Shown here one piece after another: positions 5,526 to 17,154 of a stretch of DNA of 46,015 bases (positions are counted from its first letter, which is position 1; each line of letters starts with the position of its first letter). The translations under genes and the position numbers were made by a program. The notes below the pieces were generated by a model. The model was not told where the DNA came from. It did no database searches and saw only the letters and a program-made list of their open reading frames with translations. Source of the DNA: Candidatus Aminicenantes bacterium (GTDB taxonomy: Bacteria > Acidobacteriota > Aminicenantia > UBA2199); assembly GCA_011049425.1 (NCBI GenBank), contig DSBM01000034.1:1-46015 (forward strand), written 5' to 3'.

Positions 5526-6287
5526 TCAGCGCTCCGCAGCCAGTTGGTGAATCCGCTTCATTACTTCTTCCAGGTGGGGGGCGATCTTGGCGGGATCGTC
5601 GGTTTTTTCCGGCATGTTGCGGAACACGCCGAAGGATACCCGTTGTTCTTTGCATTGGAGGAAGCCGCTGTCACCGCTGCCGGCGAAAGCGGTCCAGTCC
5701 GACTCTTTGTAGAGTTTTTGCAGTTTGAGGTCTTCCAGGCCGTGTTCGAGAATGGAATCGGGTCGATCCGGATTGTAGCGGCGCCGGTTCTTGCGCAGCG
5801 ATTCTTCCCAGGTAACATCAATGTAGAGCGTAACCGCGCGTTCCAGAACGGTTTCAGACAAGTGAGAATAGGCCTCGCGAAATCCGCCGTGTTCACTTCC
5901 CCGGGCGAACTCGATAAAAACGGTGCCGCCGCGCTCATGAAACCCTGGATCGTCCCGGATCAATCGTTCATACCGCAGACACAGTTTGCGGATCAGAAAG
6001 TTCCAATACCATGGTTCGCGGAAAGTGTGACCGGCATGGCGCCGGCCCCGGTACTCAAAGGTCCGTTCCGTGAGGAGCCTGGGGTGACCCATGGCCTCCA
6101 TCAGGTCGTCGTCTTCGAACTGTTCCCAGAGGATGGGGAAATCGTCCAATTCGCGGAATTCTCCGATATGAAAACGTCGCATGCGTTCCGCCGGCGGCAC
6201 TGAACGCAGAAAATCGATGATTTCCGACTTTCCCGCTGCCGGGCGTCCGTTAAGGATAACGATATCAAATGTGTGATCCTGAGCCAC
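5526..6287 (-). CDS. P-loop NTPase/kinase-like protein of unknown function
   Basis: 253 residues. A Walker A loop GRPAAGKSE lies at residues 14-22 right after a beta strand (FDIVILN), as in small-molecule kinases of the deoxynucleoside/adenylate kinase class. An Arg-rich lid-like stretch (LRKNRRRYNPDRPDSI) is seen near residue 175 and a hydrophobic strand VTLYIDV before it. These support a kinase or NTPase that binds a small substrate, but I do not recognise a named family. It starts at GTG 6287, supported by AGGAGG 5 nt upstream and a TATAAT box at 6312-6307. First gene of a two-gene operon with the OPA-type permease, so it may act on the transported compound (inference). Cytosolic; no signal peptide or membrane segment. 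Confidence 0.7.
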   Translation of the reverse strand: MAQDHTFDIVILNGRPAAGKSEIIDFLRSVPPAERMRRFHIGEFRELDDFPILWEQFEDDDLMEAMGHPRLLTERTFEYRGRRHAGHTFREPWYWNFLIRKLCLRYERLIRDDPGFHERGGTVFIEFARGSEHGGFREAYSHLSETVLERAVTLYIDVTWEESLRKNRRRYNPDRPDSILEHGLEDLKLQKLYKESDWTAFAGSGDSGFLQCKEQRVSFGVFRNMPEKTDDPAKIAPHLEEVMKRIHQLAAER

Positions 6288-10127: not shown

Positions 10128-12938
10128 CTAGAAAGACTCTCCAATACGGAAATAGATGGTTGGGTTGTCGGGCAGGGAATGATTTGCCGCCATTCCCAGG
10201 CCGATTTCCACGGATCCTCCCAGGTACAGGAGCATTCCCAGTTCCACGCCCCAGGTGACCGTCGGGCTGAAGTGCAGGCGTTGGGTCCACATGTTGCCGA
10301 TATCGCAGAAAAGCGCCATGTACAATCGCTCGAAACTGGGGCCCACGGGCAGTGCCCGTTCAATCTTGAGCAATTGCAGCCGTGTCTCAAGGTTAAACTG
10401 CCATCCCCCGAATCCAGAGGAATAACCCGCGGGGAAACCCCTCATCAGGGAAAACAAACGCCCTTCCACCAATCCGGCCCGGCCCGGTGTCCCGGCCCCT
10501 CCCATGTAGAATACACGGGGCGCTTCGCCCCAGGAGTGGGCCACGGCCAGTCGCATCGCCAGCACATTGGGATGGCGCAGGGTGATGTAGCGCCTCCAGT
10601 CCAGCGCCAGCGATCGCACCGCGGACGATCCATTCAGTGTGAGGTCCCACGATGTCATCAAGACAAACCGTCCACCATCCGTGCGTGTAAACGCATCGTA
10701 ATAACGCTGGTCTGAGTCGCAGATCAGAGTCAGTGAAAAACCATTGAGTTTCACGGTTTCAGCCGGATCATGTAGGAAACTGCGGTCTTGAATGCGGTTG
10801 ACGTGGATCCCCACGGCCAGGTCCCAGCGGTATTGGCGCCGCACCTTCAGCGGGAATTGGGCCTCCAGGTTCAGAAAGGCATTGGTCTGGATGAAATCAC
10901 CGCGGATCCGGTTCTCCAACACCTGGTGTTCACGTCGCCAGGTCAGGGTGATGCGGGGAAAGAAATCCCCCAGCATCAGGCGCAGGTCCGTGTTCCAGCG
11001 TTGGGTTCTCAGGCCGTAAAGCGCCCGCGCCATGTAGTCATAATGTCCGGGTAGATCCCGGCCGCTGATTCGGGCACCGATCTGGAGCTCTTTTTCCACG
11101 TAACTTGCGTCCGGAGACACAAATCGGGGGGCCAAATCCCGCCATTTGTTGTAGGGACGGCCAGGGGTGGCCGATTCCGGCCGGGGCCGGGGTTGCGCGG
11201 AAAGCCAATCGGCCGGGATGTCCGTCCACTCGGATTCGTTAATGGAAACCACGGCCAGGTCTTCTCCCCCTGCGTTTAAAAAAATCGTCAGCAGGCTGTC
11301 GTTGTTGGCGACGGCCAGGTAACGGATCTCGGGAGAGTGCAGTCCCTTCATTGTGCGTACGTTTCGGCGGGAAAGGTTGGCGATGGCGATGGTGCTTTTT
11401 TTCTGGCTTGAAAGCACGAAGGCCAGGCGGTTGTTGTCCAGCCAGCGGGGAACGCTGCAACGCTTCTCCGGTACGTGGATAATAAACTCCAATTCTCCGG
11501 CCGGAGTGAACAGGGCGATGCTCCAATTCCTTTCGCGCTGTTTCAGGGCCACGGCCACTTTATTCCCGTCCGGTGAAATCCGCGGGTGCGCCAGGCCGAC
11601 GTAGTTGGCGGAAAGCATGACGGGTTCAGACAGGGGGGCGTCCAAGCGCGCCAGGCGGAAACGGTCGCGATCCCGGGAGACGCAGATGAGGCCTGAACCA
11701 ATGGGAAAGGGATGGGGATGAAAAAGGCTCTTTCCCCGGCTCCAGCGGCGGCATTCACCGCTGTCCGGCGAACAGCTGTAGATGTCTGAGATCCAACGAA
11801 ATGAACGAAACACTTCCGGGGCGGAAAAAACCAACTCCCGGCTTTGGTTATCGTAAGCCAGGCTGGAGATCCCCCAGCGTCGCAGCAACCAGCCCGGTCT
11901 GCCGCTTCGTCGGTTTAGGATGCGGATACCGGGCCGGGAACGGTAGTTGTCGGATACCCACACCAGTCTATTGTCGTCCAGGACCTCCGGGTGCTGTTTG
12001 ATCCAGCCGTCGCGGGTCAGCAGCCGCAGCGGGACATCACTGTTTTCGCCTTGGCCGGCCGCCAGACCGAATTGCCGCCACAATTTCCTCAGGCGCAGGT
12101 GGTACATATGCTTGAAACGCAGGGATATGCCCAGTGAAAGGGGAACGCGGCTGAGGTGGGTCACCAAATTCTGCAGCGACTCCTGACCGTAACGATGCGC
12201 CAGGAAACGGAGAAACTCCGCTCCGTACATGAGCTTGGTGACCGGCCCCGGCCAGCGGGATGGGGATCCCCTGAGGGAAAGAAAGTGTTGAAAATCTCCT
12301 TCTGCTGCGATGTGTTGAAACATCTGCCGGTAATCCGGGGTGTTCAGGCGTCCGGAAGGGCAGATCAGGGATTCACTGAAAACGGCGAGGCCCTGGTGCA
12401 GCCATGAGGGGTACTGCATCATGGGGAAGGTGAACGGCAGGGGGCCGATCACTCGCCTGAGCTGCCTGAAAAAACCCGAAGACATATGCAGGAGCAGGAG
12501 CCGTGTGAGCTCGTGTGCCAGTACTTTATCCAGCCAGGGCTCCCTGCCTCCGCTGAGGCGGGAATCCGGGGAAGGCGGCGCCATATCGATGCGGATGGCT
12601 GGAAAGGGGAAGAGGGTGATGGAGCCTCCAGCCACATCGGAATCAGGCGCCAATAACAGGCGGACCTTAGACTCGATGGTTACATTCCACAATTCGACAA
12701 GCAGGTTGTATTGCCGCAGCGCGGTCTGCGCGATTTCATTGGCCTGATTTTCATATCCTTTAGGAAACACCACGACGAAGCGCGGGTTTTGAATTTCTTT
12801 CCACTCGATTGAGGGAGCCAGGCGATCCTGCGCGAATGCGGCAAAAGAAAAGAAAATCAGTAAGCTGAATAAGATGAGTTTCTTGACTTGAAATCGGTGG
12901 AACCCGCTTTTGAATTCAGCGTCATCTGTGGACTTCAC
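10128..12938 (-). CDS. Secreted pseudo-metallopeptidase / TolB-like propeller / outer-membrane beta-barrel protein
   Basis: 936 residues with three parts. The signal peptide (residues about 18-37, ending AAFAQ) leads into a gluzincin-like domain (about 40-300): the zinc motif HExxH appears as HELTR at 142-146, and the downstream 'P.W..EG.A.y.E' block reads PSWLHQGLAVFSE, with Gln182 for the zinc-ligand Glu. Both changes should abolish zinc catalysis. Residues about 315-590 contain repeated 'D..rlvWvSdn' and 'HPRISPDGNKVAVA' strands, a TolB/PD40-type beta-propeller. The last 300 residues are beta-barrel-like, with LMRGFPAGY (Omp85 RGF loop motif), GGWQFNLETRL, LFCDIGNMW and a terminal Phe. It starts at GTG 12938, 15 nt after the trxB stop, so it is co-transcribed with trxB. 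Likely outer-membrane scaffold or binding protein; exact role unknown. Confidence 0.8.
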   Translation of the reverse strand: MKSTDDAEFKSGFHRFQVKKLILFSLLIFFSFAAFAQDRLAPSIEWKEIQNPRFVVVFPKGYENQANEIAQTALRQYNLLVELWNVTIESKVRLLLAPDSDVAGGSITLFPFPAIRIDMAPPSPDSRLSGGREPWLDKVLAHELTRLLLLHMSSGFFRQLRRVIGPLPFTFPMMQYPSWLHQGLAVFSESLICPSGRLNTPDYRQMFQHIAAEGDFQHFLSLRGSPSRWPGPVTKLMYGAEFLRFLAHRYGQESLQNLVTHLSRVPLSLGISLRFKHMYHLRLRKLWRQFGLAAGQGENSDVPLRLLTRDGWIKQHPEVLDDNRLVWVSDNYRSRPGIRILNRRSGRPGWLLRRWGISSLAYDNQSRELVFSAPEVFRSFRWISDIYSCSPDSGECRRWSRGKSLFHPHPFPIGSGLICVSRDRDRFRLARLDAPLSEPVMLSANYVGLAHPRISPDGNKVAVALKQRERNWSIALFTPAGELEFIIHVPEKRCSVPRWLDNNRLAFVLSSQKKSTIAIANLSRRNVRTMKGLHSPEIRYLAVANNDSLLTIFLNAGGEDLAVVSINESEWTDIPADWLSAQPRPRPESATPGRPYNKWRDLAPRFVSPDASYVEKELQIGARISGRDLPGHYDYMARALYGLRTQRWNTDLRLMLGDFFPRITLTWRREHQVLENRIRGDFIQTNAFLNLEAQFPLKVRRQYRWDLAVGIHVNRIQDRSFLHDPAETVKLNGFSLTLICDSDQRYYDAFTRTDGGRFVLMTSWDLTLNGSSAVRSLALDWRRYITLRHPNVLAMRLAVAHSWGEAPRVFYMGGAGTPGRAGLVEGRLFSLMRGFPAGYSSGFGGWQFNLETRLQLLKIERALPVGPSFERLYMALFCDIGNMWTQRLHFSPTVTWGVELGMLLYLGGSVEIGLGMAANHSLPDNPTIYFRIGESF

Positions 12939-12953: not shown

Positions 12954-13889
12954 TCAGTCTTCCAATGCCTCCAGGTAATGTTCGGCATCCAGGGCGGCCA
13001 TGCAACCACTTCCCGCCGCGGTGATGGCCTGGCGGTAGTGGGGATCCTGCACATCTCCACATGCAAACACGCCGGGAATACTGGTGCGTGTCTGGTTCTT
13101 TTTTTCCGCGGCTGTAATGATATACCCTTGGGGATCCAGCTCCAGTTGGCCTTCGAACAAGCCGGTATTGGGTGTGTGACCGATGGCCGCAAACACACCG
13201 TCCAGCGGCATTTCCCGGCTCTCGCCGCTGCGCTTGTTGAGCAGCCGGATTCCAGAGACCCTGTCTTCTCCGAGAATCTCTTCCACCACTGAATCCATGA
13301 TGAAGTGGATCTTGTCGTTGCGCCGGGCTCGTTCCACCATGTAGTGAGATGCCCGCAACTCATTTCTGCGGTGAATAATATGAACTTCGCTGGCGAAGCG
13401 GGTCAGGAACAAGGCTTCTTCCATGGCGCTGTCGCCGCCGCCCACTACGGCCACTTTGCGGTCTTTGAAAAAGAAGCCGTCGCAGGTGGCACAAGCGCTG
13501 ACCCCGCGTCCCATGAGGCGCTTTTCACTATCCAATCCCAACAAATTGGCTCTTGCCCCGGTTGAGATAATCAGCACCGGAGAACGGAATTCCTCTTCTT
13601 CTATCCAAATCCGCTGGTCTCCCGCGGACAGTTCCACCCTGGTTACATCAATTGTGCGCAATTCGGCGCCAAAGCGTTCGGCCTGGGCCCGTGAATTGGC
13701 CACCAGGTCGGGCCCGGTGATGCCTTCCGTGAATCCCGGAAAGTTCTCTACTTCAGTGGTGATCATGAGTTGGCCACCCGCCTGGTAACCTTCAAAGACA
13801 AGCGGTTTTAATCCCGCGCGGGCCGTGTAGATGGCGGCCGTAAGGCCGGCAGGTCCGGAACCGACAATAATGACTTGACGCTTTTCCAT
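12954..13889 (-). CDS. trxB: Thioredoxin-disulfide reductase
   Basis: 311 residues. It transfers electrons from NADPH through FAD and a redox disulfide to thioredoxin. FAD-binding GSGPAGLTAAIYTARAGL is at the N-terminus, the active-site CATC sits in GVSACATCDGFFF, the NADPH fold shows GGGDSAMEEALFL, and the C-terminal FAD motif is GVFACGDVQDPHYRQ. ATG 13889 is chosen because GGAG lies about 8 nt upstream; an in-frame TTG at 13907 lacks a site. A consensus-like promoter lies at 13971-13943. It is the first gene of an operon with the large outer-membrane protein. No thioredoxin gene lies nearby. Confidence 0.95.
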   Translation of the reverse strand: MEKRQVIIVGSGPAGLTAAIYTARAGLKPLVFEGYQAGGQLMITTEVENFPGFTEGITGPDLVANSRAQAERFGAELRTIDVTRVELSAGDQRIWIEEEEFRSPVLIISTGARANLLGLDSEKRLMGRGVSACATCDGFFFKDRKVAVVGGGDSAMEEALFLTRFASEVHIIHRRNELRASHYMVERARRNDKIHFIMDSVVEEILGEDRVSGIRLLNKRSGESREMPLDGVFAAIGHTPNTGLFEGQLELDPQGYIITAAEKKNQTRTSIPGVFACGDVQDPHYRQAITAAGSGCMAALDAEHYLEALED

Positions 13890-13942
13890 GGTGGTTTCTC
13901 CAGCCAAAATGTTGGCACGGGGCTTAACGGTAACCCGGCTCG

Positions 13943-14306: not shown

Positions 14307-14879
14307 TTAAATCATGGCCCCGATCGGATAAGACCAGCCCAGTATTGAGTCTATGAATTCTTTTTCCGCTTCGTAAAAAGGAACCCACACCAGCCGGGTC
14401 GAGTGAATGGTGATGCCTGTCACTCGTCGTCGCCGTGCCGCTTCTTTTTTGACGGCGTAAATTTCGGGGTAGATCGCGGTATGGGCTTCGCCCCGGTCAG
14501 CGGGGAAGAACGCGAGTTTCCGGCAACGCTCTGTGCTGGGGACCACATTGCGATTGGTGTAATACAAACCGATATCACCGAAATAGCTGATGTTCTTGAT
14601 AAAAAAGGCCGGAACCCAGAAACGGCCGTCGATTTCATCCGGGTTTTGTTTTTTTTCCGCAAGCGCCTGGTATCGGGCACGGAAAAGCCAGAAAGCAAAG
14701 TATCGTGGGGTCTCCAAGCGTTGAATCACTGGCGCCGCACATTCGAAATCGAATTCTTGTTCACGTCCACGACTCAGGTCAACACCGATGCGACAGCTTC
14801 GGCAGAAAAAGATCCAACTGTTGTTATCTCCTTCCAGATCCGCCCGGCAACGGGGACATTTCAGGCTCAAGAGTTTCAT
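14307..14879 (-). CDS. Soluble zinc-ribbon protein, last gene of the zinc-ribbon operon
   Basis: 190 residues. An N-terminal zinc ribbon has Cys8, Cys11, Cys26 and Cys29 (CPRC...CRSC). A long Arg/Lys-containing region follows without any membrane helix. It carries two copies of the aromatic-x-P motif seen in its neighbours: RFWVPAFFIKNISYFGD and RLVWVPFYEAEKEFIDS. The start ATG 14879 overlaps the stop of the upstream gene by 4 nt (ATGA), so translation is coupled. A longer frame upstream is excluded because it would run through the neighbour's coding sequence in a frame with no zinc ribbon. I do not recognise a named family; the ribbon resembles TFIIB/transcription-factor-type ribbons of unassigned bacterial proteins. 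Confidence 0.72.
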   Translation of the reverse strand: MKLLSLKCPRCRADLEGDNNSWIFFCRSCRIGVDLSRGREQEFDFECAAPVIQRLETPRYFAFWLFRARYQALAEKKQNPDEIDGRFWVPAFFIKNISYFGDIGLYYTNRNVVPSTERCRKLAFFPADRGEAHTAIYPEIYAVKKEAARRRRVTGITIHSTRLVWVPFYEAEKEFIDSILGWSYPIGAMI

Positions 14880-15883
14880 GGTTCCTTGCTTTCCCCGGAT
14901 TCTCCCGTCAGGGAATTGACAAAGCGGCGGCTGAACTTCAGCAAGGCGCCTTCCCGGTAGCTGATGGTTCGCGTGGATGTAAAATTTCCCGAGATACTGA
15001 TCTCCTCGCGGAAAGCGAACAGGCGCCACAGATAGGGGAACAATACGGCCCAGGTCAGGGCCGCACCGGCCACCAGGATCCCGGCTGTCAGCAGGAAAAA
15101 AATACCCGAGCGAATGCGGCCGACCATTTCGACGGCAACCCGGATCGTTCGGCCCAGCAGCAAGGCCAGGGAAAATGAGCCCAGCAGTGACAGTGATAGT
15201 TTGCGGCGGTGGTTGCGCAGACCGTTGACAAGTATCATGGTCCCGTCCACAGCGGAGCAATAGCTGTGAAACATGATGCCCCGGTAACTGTATACGATCT
15301 CCCACACGGGCAGATAAACCAGGCGCAGATGGTTTTCAATCGTATCCCGGAGGTCCGGCATCGCATTTGTGGATTTAATGATTGGGGTGGGCGTTGCGGG
15401 CAACACCACGCCCCGGCGGCGCATTTCCAGGGGACGAAATGGTACTTGGCGGGCTTTGAGCATGGCGGCCTCCACGATGCTGCGATCCAATACGTCCAGA
15501 AACAGGGCGGACAAATCATTGGCCGGTTCAAGGTACTCAAAAGAAACCATCGAGAAAGCGTCTTGGCCGGTGGGTTCCAACGCGGCGGCAGCCCAACCCG
15601 CCTTGATGCCCCGCACTTCGCTGAAGGGAATATAAAAAAGGGTGGCCCGCTCAAAAAAAGTGCCCTTGCGGAAACCCGGTTCAATACGGGGATCCCGTAA
15701 CGCGGTCAGCACCGCTATCCGGGCCTGGTCGGCAGTCAGCTCACTGGCCAGCACAACCGCGGGAGGCTGGTCATGGTCGAGGAAATATGGGTTGCGGCAG
15801 TATGCACAGCGGCAGATGCGTTGACCGTCAACAACCGGAAGCGGCCCGCCGCAATGGCTGCAGTTGATTAAAGAGACAGTCAT
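14876..15883 (-). CDS. Membrane-anchored zinc-ribbon protein
   Basis: 335 residues. An N-terminal zinc ribbon has Cys8, Cys11, Cys26 and Cys29 (CSHC...CAYC, with an extra Cys24). The central soluble region contains LFYIPFSEVRGIKAGW and later LVYLPVWEIVYSYRGIMFH, followed by YCSAVDGTMILVNG. Then come two hydrophobic segments (about residues 235-250 and 263-292) and a short charged tail. The order (ribbon, two Y-[IL]-P motifs, C-x-AV-x-G, membrane hairpin) is shared with the adjacent 240-residue protein, so the two are paralogues. ATGA overlaps join it to both neighbours. The ribbon would sit on the cytosolic side if both hydrophobic segments span the membrane. Function unknown. Confidence 0.75.
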   Translation of the reverse strand: MTVSLINCSHCGGPLPVVDGQRICRCAYCRNPYFLDHDQPPAVVLASELTADQARIAVLTALRDPRIEPGFRKGTFFERATLFYIPFSEVRGIKAGWAAAALEPTGQDAFSMVSFEYLEPANDLSALFLDVLDRSIVEAAMLKARQVPFRPLEMRRRGVVLPATPTPIIKSTNAMPDLRDTIENHLRLVYLPVWEIVYSYRGIMFHSYCSAVDGTMILVNGLRNHRRKLSLSLLGSFSLALLLGRTIRVAVEMVGRIRSGIFFLLTAGILVAGAALTWAVLFPYLWRLFAFREEISISGNFTSTRTISYREGALLKFSRRFVNSLTGESGESKEP

Positions 15884-16602
15884 CGGTAGAGTCGGTTCTC
15901 AATCCACGGCAGGCTGATCTGGTTGGCCAGCAGAAAGAGAAGCGCGTTCAGGGAAAGCAGCACCCAGGGGGTGTCCACGACAATATCGAACGCCAGGACC
16001 ACCAGAAAAATACCCGCGAACAAGCGAAACAAACGGGACGCACGCGGGTTCGGTTCCCGGGGGATGGAAGGGCCGTAGACGCTGCCGGAAACCGCGTTGC
16101 ACAGAAAATAATATTCTTTTTTTCTGTGGGTTACGGGGATTCGATAAAAGGGAATGTAGAGCAGGCGTCGTTCGGCACTTTCCCCGGGCTGGGTATCCAC
16201 CGCCAGAATAACACTTCCCGGCGGCTGTTGATCAGGAAGAAAAACCTGCCGGGTTGCGGCGGGTTTGTTGAGGGAAATCTCCGGGAACGTGGCGCATGCC
16301 CGTTGCAATTGCGAGTTGCTGTTCACTTCCCAGAAAGGAATGTACAGGCATTCCGCTTGGCCCAGCGCAATGCCTCTGTCAAGTGTCAGTTCCGCCAGGT
16401 GCCGGCGCACATGCAGTGGGGATTCCTTTTCCGGGATCGTGGGATGATAAGTGGCCACCGGCATTAAGGTGTCCAGGTCCAGGAACAGTGAACTGCCGCA
16501 ATGGGTACAGGCGATAAAGCAATCCAGCTGGCGTGGACTTAAAGGGGCTCCACATTGGGGGCAACTGAACGTGGATGCACCGGGCGGGGTTTCCCGTGTC
16601 AT
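15880..16602 (-). CDS. Membrane-anchored zinc-ribbon protein
   Basis: 240 residues. Zinc ribbon Cys14, Cys17, Cys32, Cys35 (CPQC...CTHC). The middle region carries CLYIPFWEVNSNS and LLYIPFYRIPVTHRK, followed by LCNAVSGSVYG, the counterpart of CSAVDG in the 335-residue paralogue. Two C-terminal hydrophobic segments (about 192-209 and 212-230) form a likely membrane hairpin. It starts at ATG 16602, 30 nt after the stop of the helical protein gene, and overlaps the next gene by 4 nt. Some bacterial zinc-ribbon proteins with 'YLPFW' repeats are loosely annotated as helicase-like; there is no helicase motif here. Confidence 0.75.
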   Translation of the reverse strand: MTRETPPGASTFSCPQCGAPLSPRQLDCFIACTHCGSSLFLDLDTLMPVATYHPTIPEKESPLHVRRHLAELTLDRGIALGQAECLYIPFWEVNSNSQLQRACATFPEISLNKPAATRQVFLPDQQPPGSVILAVDTQPGESAERRLLYIPFYRIPVTHRKKEYYFLCNAVSGSVYGPSIPREPNPRASRLFRLFAGIFLVVLAFDIVVDTPWVLLSLNALLFLLANQISLPWIENRLYR

Positions 16603-16632
16603 GGACCCGGAGTAGTGCGCCTGTACCTCGAT

Positions 16633-17154
16633 TCAATCATTTTTGGATTCCTCGTTGAGGTCCGATTCAGCTCCACGTTTTTTTCGCTCCCGGATCCGTT
16701 GCAGGAGCCGGTCCAATGTATCCAGCAGCAACAAGACATCATTGCGTTCAGGAACGGGACCGGGCAACTGCGCGATCCGGTCCATGAAAGCACTCAGGCA
16801 TTCCAGGTATTCACAGTCTTCGCGGTGCCATTCAGCCAGAAGACCGGGGGCAACCACGGTAGTGCCGTCCAGGGTTTCCGGGGGGGGCTCCAGTGCTTCC
16901 TGAAGTTGTTGCAGTGTGGAAAGCATGTGTTCGAAGTCGGACAGGAGGTCCAGGCGTTTTTCCTTGGCGGCGGAACTCACGAGTTGTTTTACCCGGGAAA
17001 TGACGTCGGCTGCAAGTTGATCCAGGTAACGGCGGAAGCGTTCATCTTCCCGCAAACGCTTTTCCGGGTATTCATAGCCTTGAAAGCCGTTGATGTGTTG
17101 CTGAATCCGCTCCAGCCAGGGGGTTTGTGTACGGGTTTGCTGTGATTCGTTCAA
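16633..17154 (-). CDS. Helical protein of unknown function, first gene of the zinc-ribbon operon
   Basis: 173 residues, predicted mostly alpha-helical: long stretches rich in Leu, Glu, Arg and Gln (e.g. LLSDFEHMLSTLQQLQEAL, LLLLDTLDRLLQRIRERKK) without glycine or proline. A short Pro-rich break lies at about residue 90. No membrane segment, no signal peptide, no zinc ribbon. It starts at TTG 17154, with GGAG 7 nt upstream and a TATAAT box at 17177-17172; the leader would be only about 11 nt. I do not recognise a family. As the promoter-proximal gene ahead of three zinc-ribbon paralogues it is likely a functional partner, perhaps a soluble coiled-coil subunit (inference). Confidence 0.65.
   Translation of the reverse strand: MNESQQTRTQTPWLERIQQHINGFQGYEYPEKRLREDERFRRYLDQLAADVISRVKQLVSSAAKEKRLDLLSDFEHMLSTLQQLQEALEPPPETLDGTTVVAPGLLAEWHREDCEYLECLSAFMDRIAQLPGPVPERNDVLLLLDTLDRLLQRIRERKKRGAESDLNEESKND

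Follow-up and report, generated by a model that had tools for sequence, protein, structure and literature searches.

Organization of the locus

The window, a 46,015-nucleotide stretch of DNA from a Candidatus Aminicenantes genome (Acidobacteriota), encodes four minus-strand genes, here named g1 to g4, at positions 14307-17154 (Table 1). The g2/g3 and g3/g4 junctions each have a 4-bp overlap, and a gap of 30 bp separates g1 from g2. An alanine-racemase-like gene is the divergent neighbour of g1, and a gene resembling thioredoxin reductase (judged by sequence) lies downstream of g4. Promoter or terminator signals above chance were not found at the locus. Comparison with the nearest genome gave dN/dS values of 0.12-0.22 for g1-g4, indicating purifying selection, and of 0.08 for the thioredoxin-reductase-like gene.

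An initial annotation described three proteins with N-terminal CxxC...CxxC ribbons and aromatic-P motifs, plus a helical partner (g1) that lacks a ribbon. This description is confirmed, and g1 is now seen to belong to a conserved g1-SPFH pair. Searches of Pfam, NCBIfam and PADLOC with the single proteins returned nothing above cut-off for g1-g4 (generic ribbon hints only). The absence of any match to a characterised family in these collections agrees with the earlier statement that no nuclease, protease or transporter is apparent.

Table 1. Genes of the locus and neighbouring genes in the window.
Feature	Position	Strand	Length	Description
g1	16633..17154	-	173 aa	TTG start; soluble, probably helical; remote relative of LIMLP_15305 (via homologues)
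g2	15880..16602	-	240 aa	Ribbon C14/C17/C32/C35 and beta domain; two aromatic-x-P motifs; C-terminal membrane hairpin ~186-239
g3	14876..15883	-	335 aa	Paralogue of g2; ribbon C8/C11/C26/C29; two aromatic-x-P motifs; C-terminal hydrophobic hairpin ~228-286, then ~50-aa tail
g4	14307..14879	-	190 aa	Soluble; ribbon C8/C11/C26/C29; aromatic-x-P motifs; no membrane segment
Alanine-racemase-like gene	17259
Thioredoxin-reductase-like gene	12954-13907
936-aa protein	10128-12938	-	936 aa	No Pfam match at 1e-5; by eye, beta-propeller-type middle and outer-membrane-barrel-like C-terminus
253-aa protein	5526-6287	-	253 aa	P-loop-like start GRPAAGKSE; no Pfam match at 1e-5

Conserved residues and predicted structures

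All twelve ribbon cysteines of g2, g3 and g4 are invariant in phylum-wide alignments (21-23 sequences each). Outside the ribbon, the invariant residues in these alignments are P89 and P151 of g2, G158 and P192 of g3, and F92 and P167 of g4; P86 of g3 and position 62 of g4 are conserved at 90% or more. Since invariance is limited to the cysteines, the motif prolines and a single Gly or Phe, the chief constant element of these proteins apart from the ribbon is the aromatic-P motif. The motifs read LYIPFWEV and LLYIPFYRI in g2, LFYIPFSEV and LVYLPVWEI in g3, and FWVPAFFI and LVWVPFYEA in g4. The g4 segment RYFAFWLF is Y-x-PFW in most relatives, the proline having been lost in the window copy. The C-x-AV-x-G sequence that the initial annotation placed ahead of the membrane hairpins survives in its glycine (invariant or 90% conserved); the cysteine is genus-specific, and relatives mostly have [ND]-A-x-x-G or a similar sequence without Cys.

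By hydropathy, g2 and g3 have C-terminal hydrophobic stretches, which g1 and g4 lack, supporting the earlier prediction of a membrane hairpin in two ribbon proteins and a soluble third. The AlphaFold model of g2 (mean pLDDT 88.5, pTM 0.77) also supports it, as it terminates in two membrane helices (186-208 and 212-239). Both this model and that of g4 (mean pLDDT 93.2, pTM 0.89) consist of a ribbon and a beta-rich domain, with the aromatic-P motifs within long strands. Foldseek found no match at E <= 0.001 for the g2 model in PDB or BFVD, or for the g4 model in PDB. Neither predicted structure thus matches a solved structure in PDB, and we make no claim of a new fold. No signal peptide was seen by eye, and on this basis we infer that the ribbon domains are cytoplasmic.

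Paralogy of g2, g3 and g4

Profile comparison firmly places g2 and g3 as ancient paralogues (hhalign 99.7%, E 4e-27, 212 columns). The g4 protein, which aligned to g2 and g3 at 97.2% and 96.3% over 67-68 columns confined to the ribbon and first motif, is likely a third. The proposal of three paralogues therefore stands for g2 and g3, which the tree also supports, and for g4 it depends on these two elements. The internal duplication that was also proposed initially found no profile support beyond 13 residues: when the two halves of each protein were compared, the alignments were limited to a motif of that length.

In the tree, g2, g3 and YdjG-like proteins form one group apiece, with several mirrored sub-groups between g2 and g3; long branches on some rows make the fine detail unsure. 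This topology indicates that the duplication predates the sampled families. The sequences cluster by host family.

Distribution and gene order of the trio

Genome profile searches centred on Acidobacteriota identified g2-g3-g4 as consecutive genes in identical order in 36 genomes of 10 Acidobacteriota families (HMM reading), so the gene order is conserved among relatives. Genomes with the trio include that of the window (G000), G001, G007, G008, G011, G014, G018, G003 and G010, and further G233, G260, G143, G102 and G290; thirteen trio loci are in L120-L126, L128-L130, L132, L134 and L135, and nine in L166-L174. G003 and G010 are included in this count; a contig ends inside their g3, and g3 and g4 resume on another contig. 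Contig ends also cut g2 in G132 and G175 and stop the loci of G098, G183 and G344. In G366, g2-g3 is present and g4 was not detected. The trio members of family f12 are weak matches, with that of g4 covering ~65 residues. In G014 (L012:2218-3909), g2 and g3 occupy one 563-aa frame, an apparent fusion for which an assembly indel is the alternative.

Single-sequence searches reach g2 and g3 in the same GTDB family only, and profiles reach the whole phylum. Likewise, strict patterns for g4 found eight loci in 84,980 genomes (seven Candidatus Aminicenantes and one Acidobacteriota bacterium), and the wider family surfaced with profiles only. The named relatives are metagenome-assembled genomes of Candidatus Aminicenantes or Acidobacteriota. 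Relatives of g4 were not found in viral contigs, nor distant g2 on plasmids. On a Novosphingobium plasmid (L214:4971-7920), an SPFH gene precedes a pair of overlapping ribbon genes. These lack aromatic-P motifs and are perhaps DUF4178-like, and the locus was rejected as unrelated to the trio on present evidence.

The neighbours of the trio vary by family and include Mpl-like, acyl-CoA-synthetase-like, LapB-like TPR and thioredoxin/Sir2/LarC-like genes (mostly read from sequence, in part profile-tested). The trio of family f11 sits between the Mpl-like and acyl-CoA-synthetase-like genes. In family f37 (L128, L132, L134) it follows genes for RlmH-like, DksA/TraR-like and TPR membrane proteins; one of these TPR proteins has a weak match to the LapB rubredoxin.

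Association of g1 with SPFH

An SPFH gene adjoins the trio in 5 of the 36 loci, with the gene order g1-SPFH-g2-g3-g4 in G327, G190 and G275, and g1-SPFH-g2-(g3) up to the contig end in g3 in G003 and G010. The window is not among them. No adjacent SPFH was seen at the other 31, some of which are cut by contig ends. The SPFH proteins of the five-gene version match PF13421 (Band_7_1; E 4e-63 and 2e-61) and have C-terminal ribbons; a membrane segment was not found in the SPFH proteins checked. The g1-type SPFH proteins form a separate, lower-scoring PF13421 group, encoded directly after the g1-like gene. Among relatives found with NF047596, a g1-like gene is directly upstream of SPFH in 26 of 30 loci. 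Trio genomes in which the modules are separated often carry the g1-SPFH pair at a different place. In an Aminicenantes genus (labelled g6; L065, L067, L076), g1-SPFH is kept beside a diacylglycerol-kinase-like gene and no trio was detected. G239 encodes a 409-aa two-ribbon protein adjoining SPFH.

A g1-family hit occurs in 15/22 trio genomes vs 30/297 overall (p 3e-12, uncorrected for shared ancestry and taking all 22 strict trio genomes as within the 297-genome sample). Counted by family, the values are 8/10 vs 16 of roughly 60-86 (p ~1e-5 to 2e-4), the family total being estimated from the labels seen. In the remaining 7 of the 22 strict trio genomes no g1 reached the search threshold; G000 is one of them, owing to the divergence of its g1. 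Elsewhere in the Acidobacteriota, g1 relatives match NCBIfam NF047596 (LIMLP_15305; E 8.9e-13 and 4e-6). The g1 of the window does not, and the best relative in the phylum sample scores 60 bits, under the curated cut-off of 210 bits. This family is named after a Leptospira protein, all g1-type relatives fall below its 210-bit cut-off, and we found no function for it.

The single Band_7_1 gene of the window's genome (C107) belongs to the other, YdjI-type group, and the gene after it encodes a YdjG-like protein with a double ribbon. A g1-type SPFH was not found in G000 (96% complete) and is likely absent. PspA (PF04012) was not identified in G000, G001, G003, G008, G010, G011 or G014; G007 and G018 have one match each.

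Predicted function

SPFH proteins are membrane organisers in all domains of life. To our knowledge, the way in which soluble bacterial SPFH proteins are held at the membrane is known in few cases. We predict, with a probability of roughly one half, that the gene products form a ribbon-headed complex at the membrane, of the SPFH-associated (stomatin/flotillin-like) kind, with g2 and g3 as anchors working with an SPFH scaffold. Given its conserved order across the Acidobacteriota and, in some genomes, an operon in common with a flotillin-like SPFH gene, the trio probably represents a variant, so far undescribed, of the membrane-care apparatus of which Bacillus YdjG/YdjI is the known example. A heteromeric g2-g3-g4 membrane complex is plausible because the trio is conserved, g2 and g3 are apparently fused in G014, and the g2 and g3 sub-trees mirror one another.

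The complete system would comprise five genes, g1-SPFH-g2-g3-g4. The C-terminal hairpins of g2 and g3 would anchor cytoplasmic ribbon and beta domains, g4 would be the soluble third ribbon subunit, and g1 would be a helical adaptor usually paired with the SPFH scaffold. In Bacillus, YdjI and PspA need YdjG and YdjH for membrane recruitment (PMC8581546). By analogy with what YdjG/YdjH do for YdjI, g2 and g3 may tether the soluble SPFH scaffold to the inner membrane, and such anchoring could involve the complex in membrane organisation or envelope stress. The trio of the window's genus may act without a dedicated SPFH, or may use the YdjI-type SPFH encoded elsewhere.

The greatest obstacle to this prediction is that the window's genus is missing the dedicated SPFH. 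Given that no adjacent SPFH was seen at most trio loci and that searches of G000 yielded no SPFH of the g1 type, the dependence on SPFH may be weak or lost. The strict trio genomes without a g1 hit, the change of neighbours from family to family and the restriction of g4's similarity to the ribbon and first motif also count against it. Moreover, with no PspA identified in G000 or in most of its relatives, the scheme known from Bacillus cannot apply unchanged. More tentatively, the trio could form a phylum-wide heterotrimeric ribbon-headed complex, with a fold that lacks solved relatives, that replaces PspA/TPM as the SPFH membrane partner in Acidobacteriota. A conserved unit of three ribbon proteins that is joined to or travels with SPFH, in a poorly studied phylum and without PspA here, would be a separate test case, and the lack of a match to the g2 and g4 models among solved structures adds to its interest.

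The scarcity of adjacent SPFH would also fit a trio that works on its own as a complex for assembly or quality control, serving an envelope enzyme or a lipid or peptidoglycan step, with an incidental link to SPFH. The placement of the trio in f37, after a TPR membrane protein (one with the LapB rubredoxin match), and in f11, between the two enzyme-like genes, is consistent with such a role. However, no neighbour is common to all families, and g1-SPFH is the only recurrent partner across distant families, so we consider this rather unlikely.

Binding of nucleic acid by the ribbons, which would make the trio a membrane-tethered regulator, is improbable. In its favour, TFIIB-type ribbons often bind DNA, certain relatives are entered in databases as 'TFIIB-type zinc ribbon-containing protein', and the idea has been raised for the TF_Zn_Ribbon of YdjG (PMC9239133). 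Apart from the ribbon, however, Pfam and NCBIfam searches found no DNA-binding domain, the most conserved non-ribbon residues are prolines of the aromatic strands, and the hairpins are hydrophobic.

SPFH and ribbon proteins are found in some conflict systems, and the trio is patchy in its presence, but a role in anti-phage defence is very unlikely given that PADLOC searches with g1-g4, with SPFH and with a distant g2/g1 were all negative, that viral contigs yielded no g4 relative, and that the tree clusters by host family. It is just as hard to regard the trio of Aminicenantes without SPFH as a decaying remnant: several genera keep it without SPFH beside it, g1 has diverged and one g4 motif proline is lost, yet all four genes are under purifying selection and retain every ribbon cysteine and the 4-bp overlaps.

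Comparison with known systems

The SPFH-associated membrane complex that we favour draws on the relationship of g2 and g3 to YdjG. The initial annotation recognized no described system of this makeup. We found no description of the g2-g3-g4 trio in the open-licence papers searched, but g2 and g3 are remote homologues of a YdjG-like SPFH partner, and the fuller operon has an SPFH gene, so a related system does exist. Comparison with a YdjG-like profile (hhalign) gave 98.8% for g2 (179 columns, E 5e-17) and 98.4% for g3 (249 columns, E 1e-14), the homology spanning the ribbon, both aromatic-P strands and the next G-containing stretch; g4 matched in the ribbon alone (85%). The g2 and g3 profiles recover the YdjG-like protein of the window's genome (G000:C107, E 8.5e-11) and match that of Enterococcus (E 7e-18 and 2e-19). 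In Enterococcus gallinarum, the YdjG-like gene is flanked by an SPFH gene and a TPM gene, as expected for YdjG. These comparisons used YdjG-like proteins, and B. subtilis YdjG itself was considered by its description, which gives it two ribbons, an NTF2-like domain related to YpeB, and a membrane segment (PMC11237479).

The YdjG-like family is characterized by two tandem ribbons, Y-x-P-Y-W, a later P-[IV]-W strand, N-x-x-[ST]-G-E-V-Q-G and one predicted membrane helix. Unlike these proteins, g2, g3 and g4 have one four-Cys ribbon apiece, and g2 and g3 end in a hairpin. The partners also differ: those of YdjG-like proteins are a YdjI-type SPFH (with TPM and PspA in Bacillus), whereas those of g2 and g3 are g4, g1 and another SPFH branch. 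A TPM (YdjH) domain was not identified in g1-g4 or in the flanking genes run against Pfam. Of the PspA-YdjGHI system, neither PspA in the window's genome nor TPM in the operon was thus identified. In Acidobacteriota, band-7 genes have been reported near pspA (PMC9239133).

Common to YdjG-like proteins and g2/g3 are the N-terminal CxxC...CxxC ribbon, Y-x-P-[YF]-W, the later P-[IV]-W strand with a G-E-V-like stretch after it, the C-terminal membrane segment and, in 5 of the 36 trio loci, adjacency to SPFH. The likeness includes the scaffold, as YdjI (PF13421) carries a C-terminal zinc-finger motif (PMC8581546) like that of the SPFH protein in the five-gene version.
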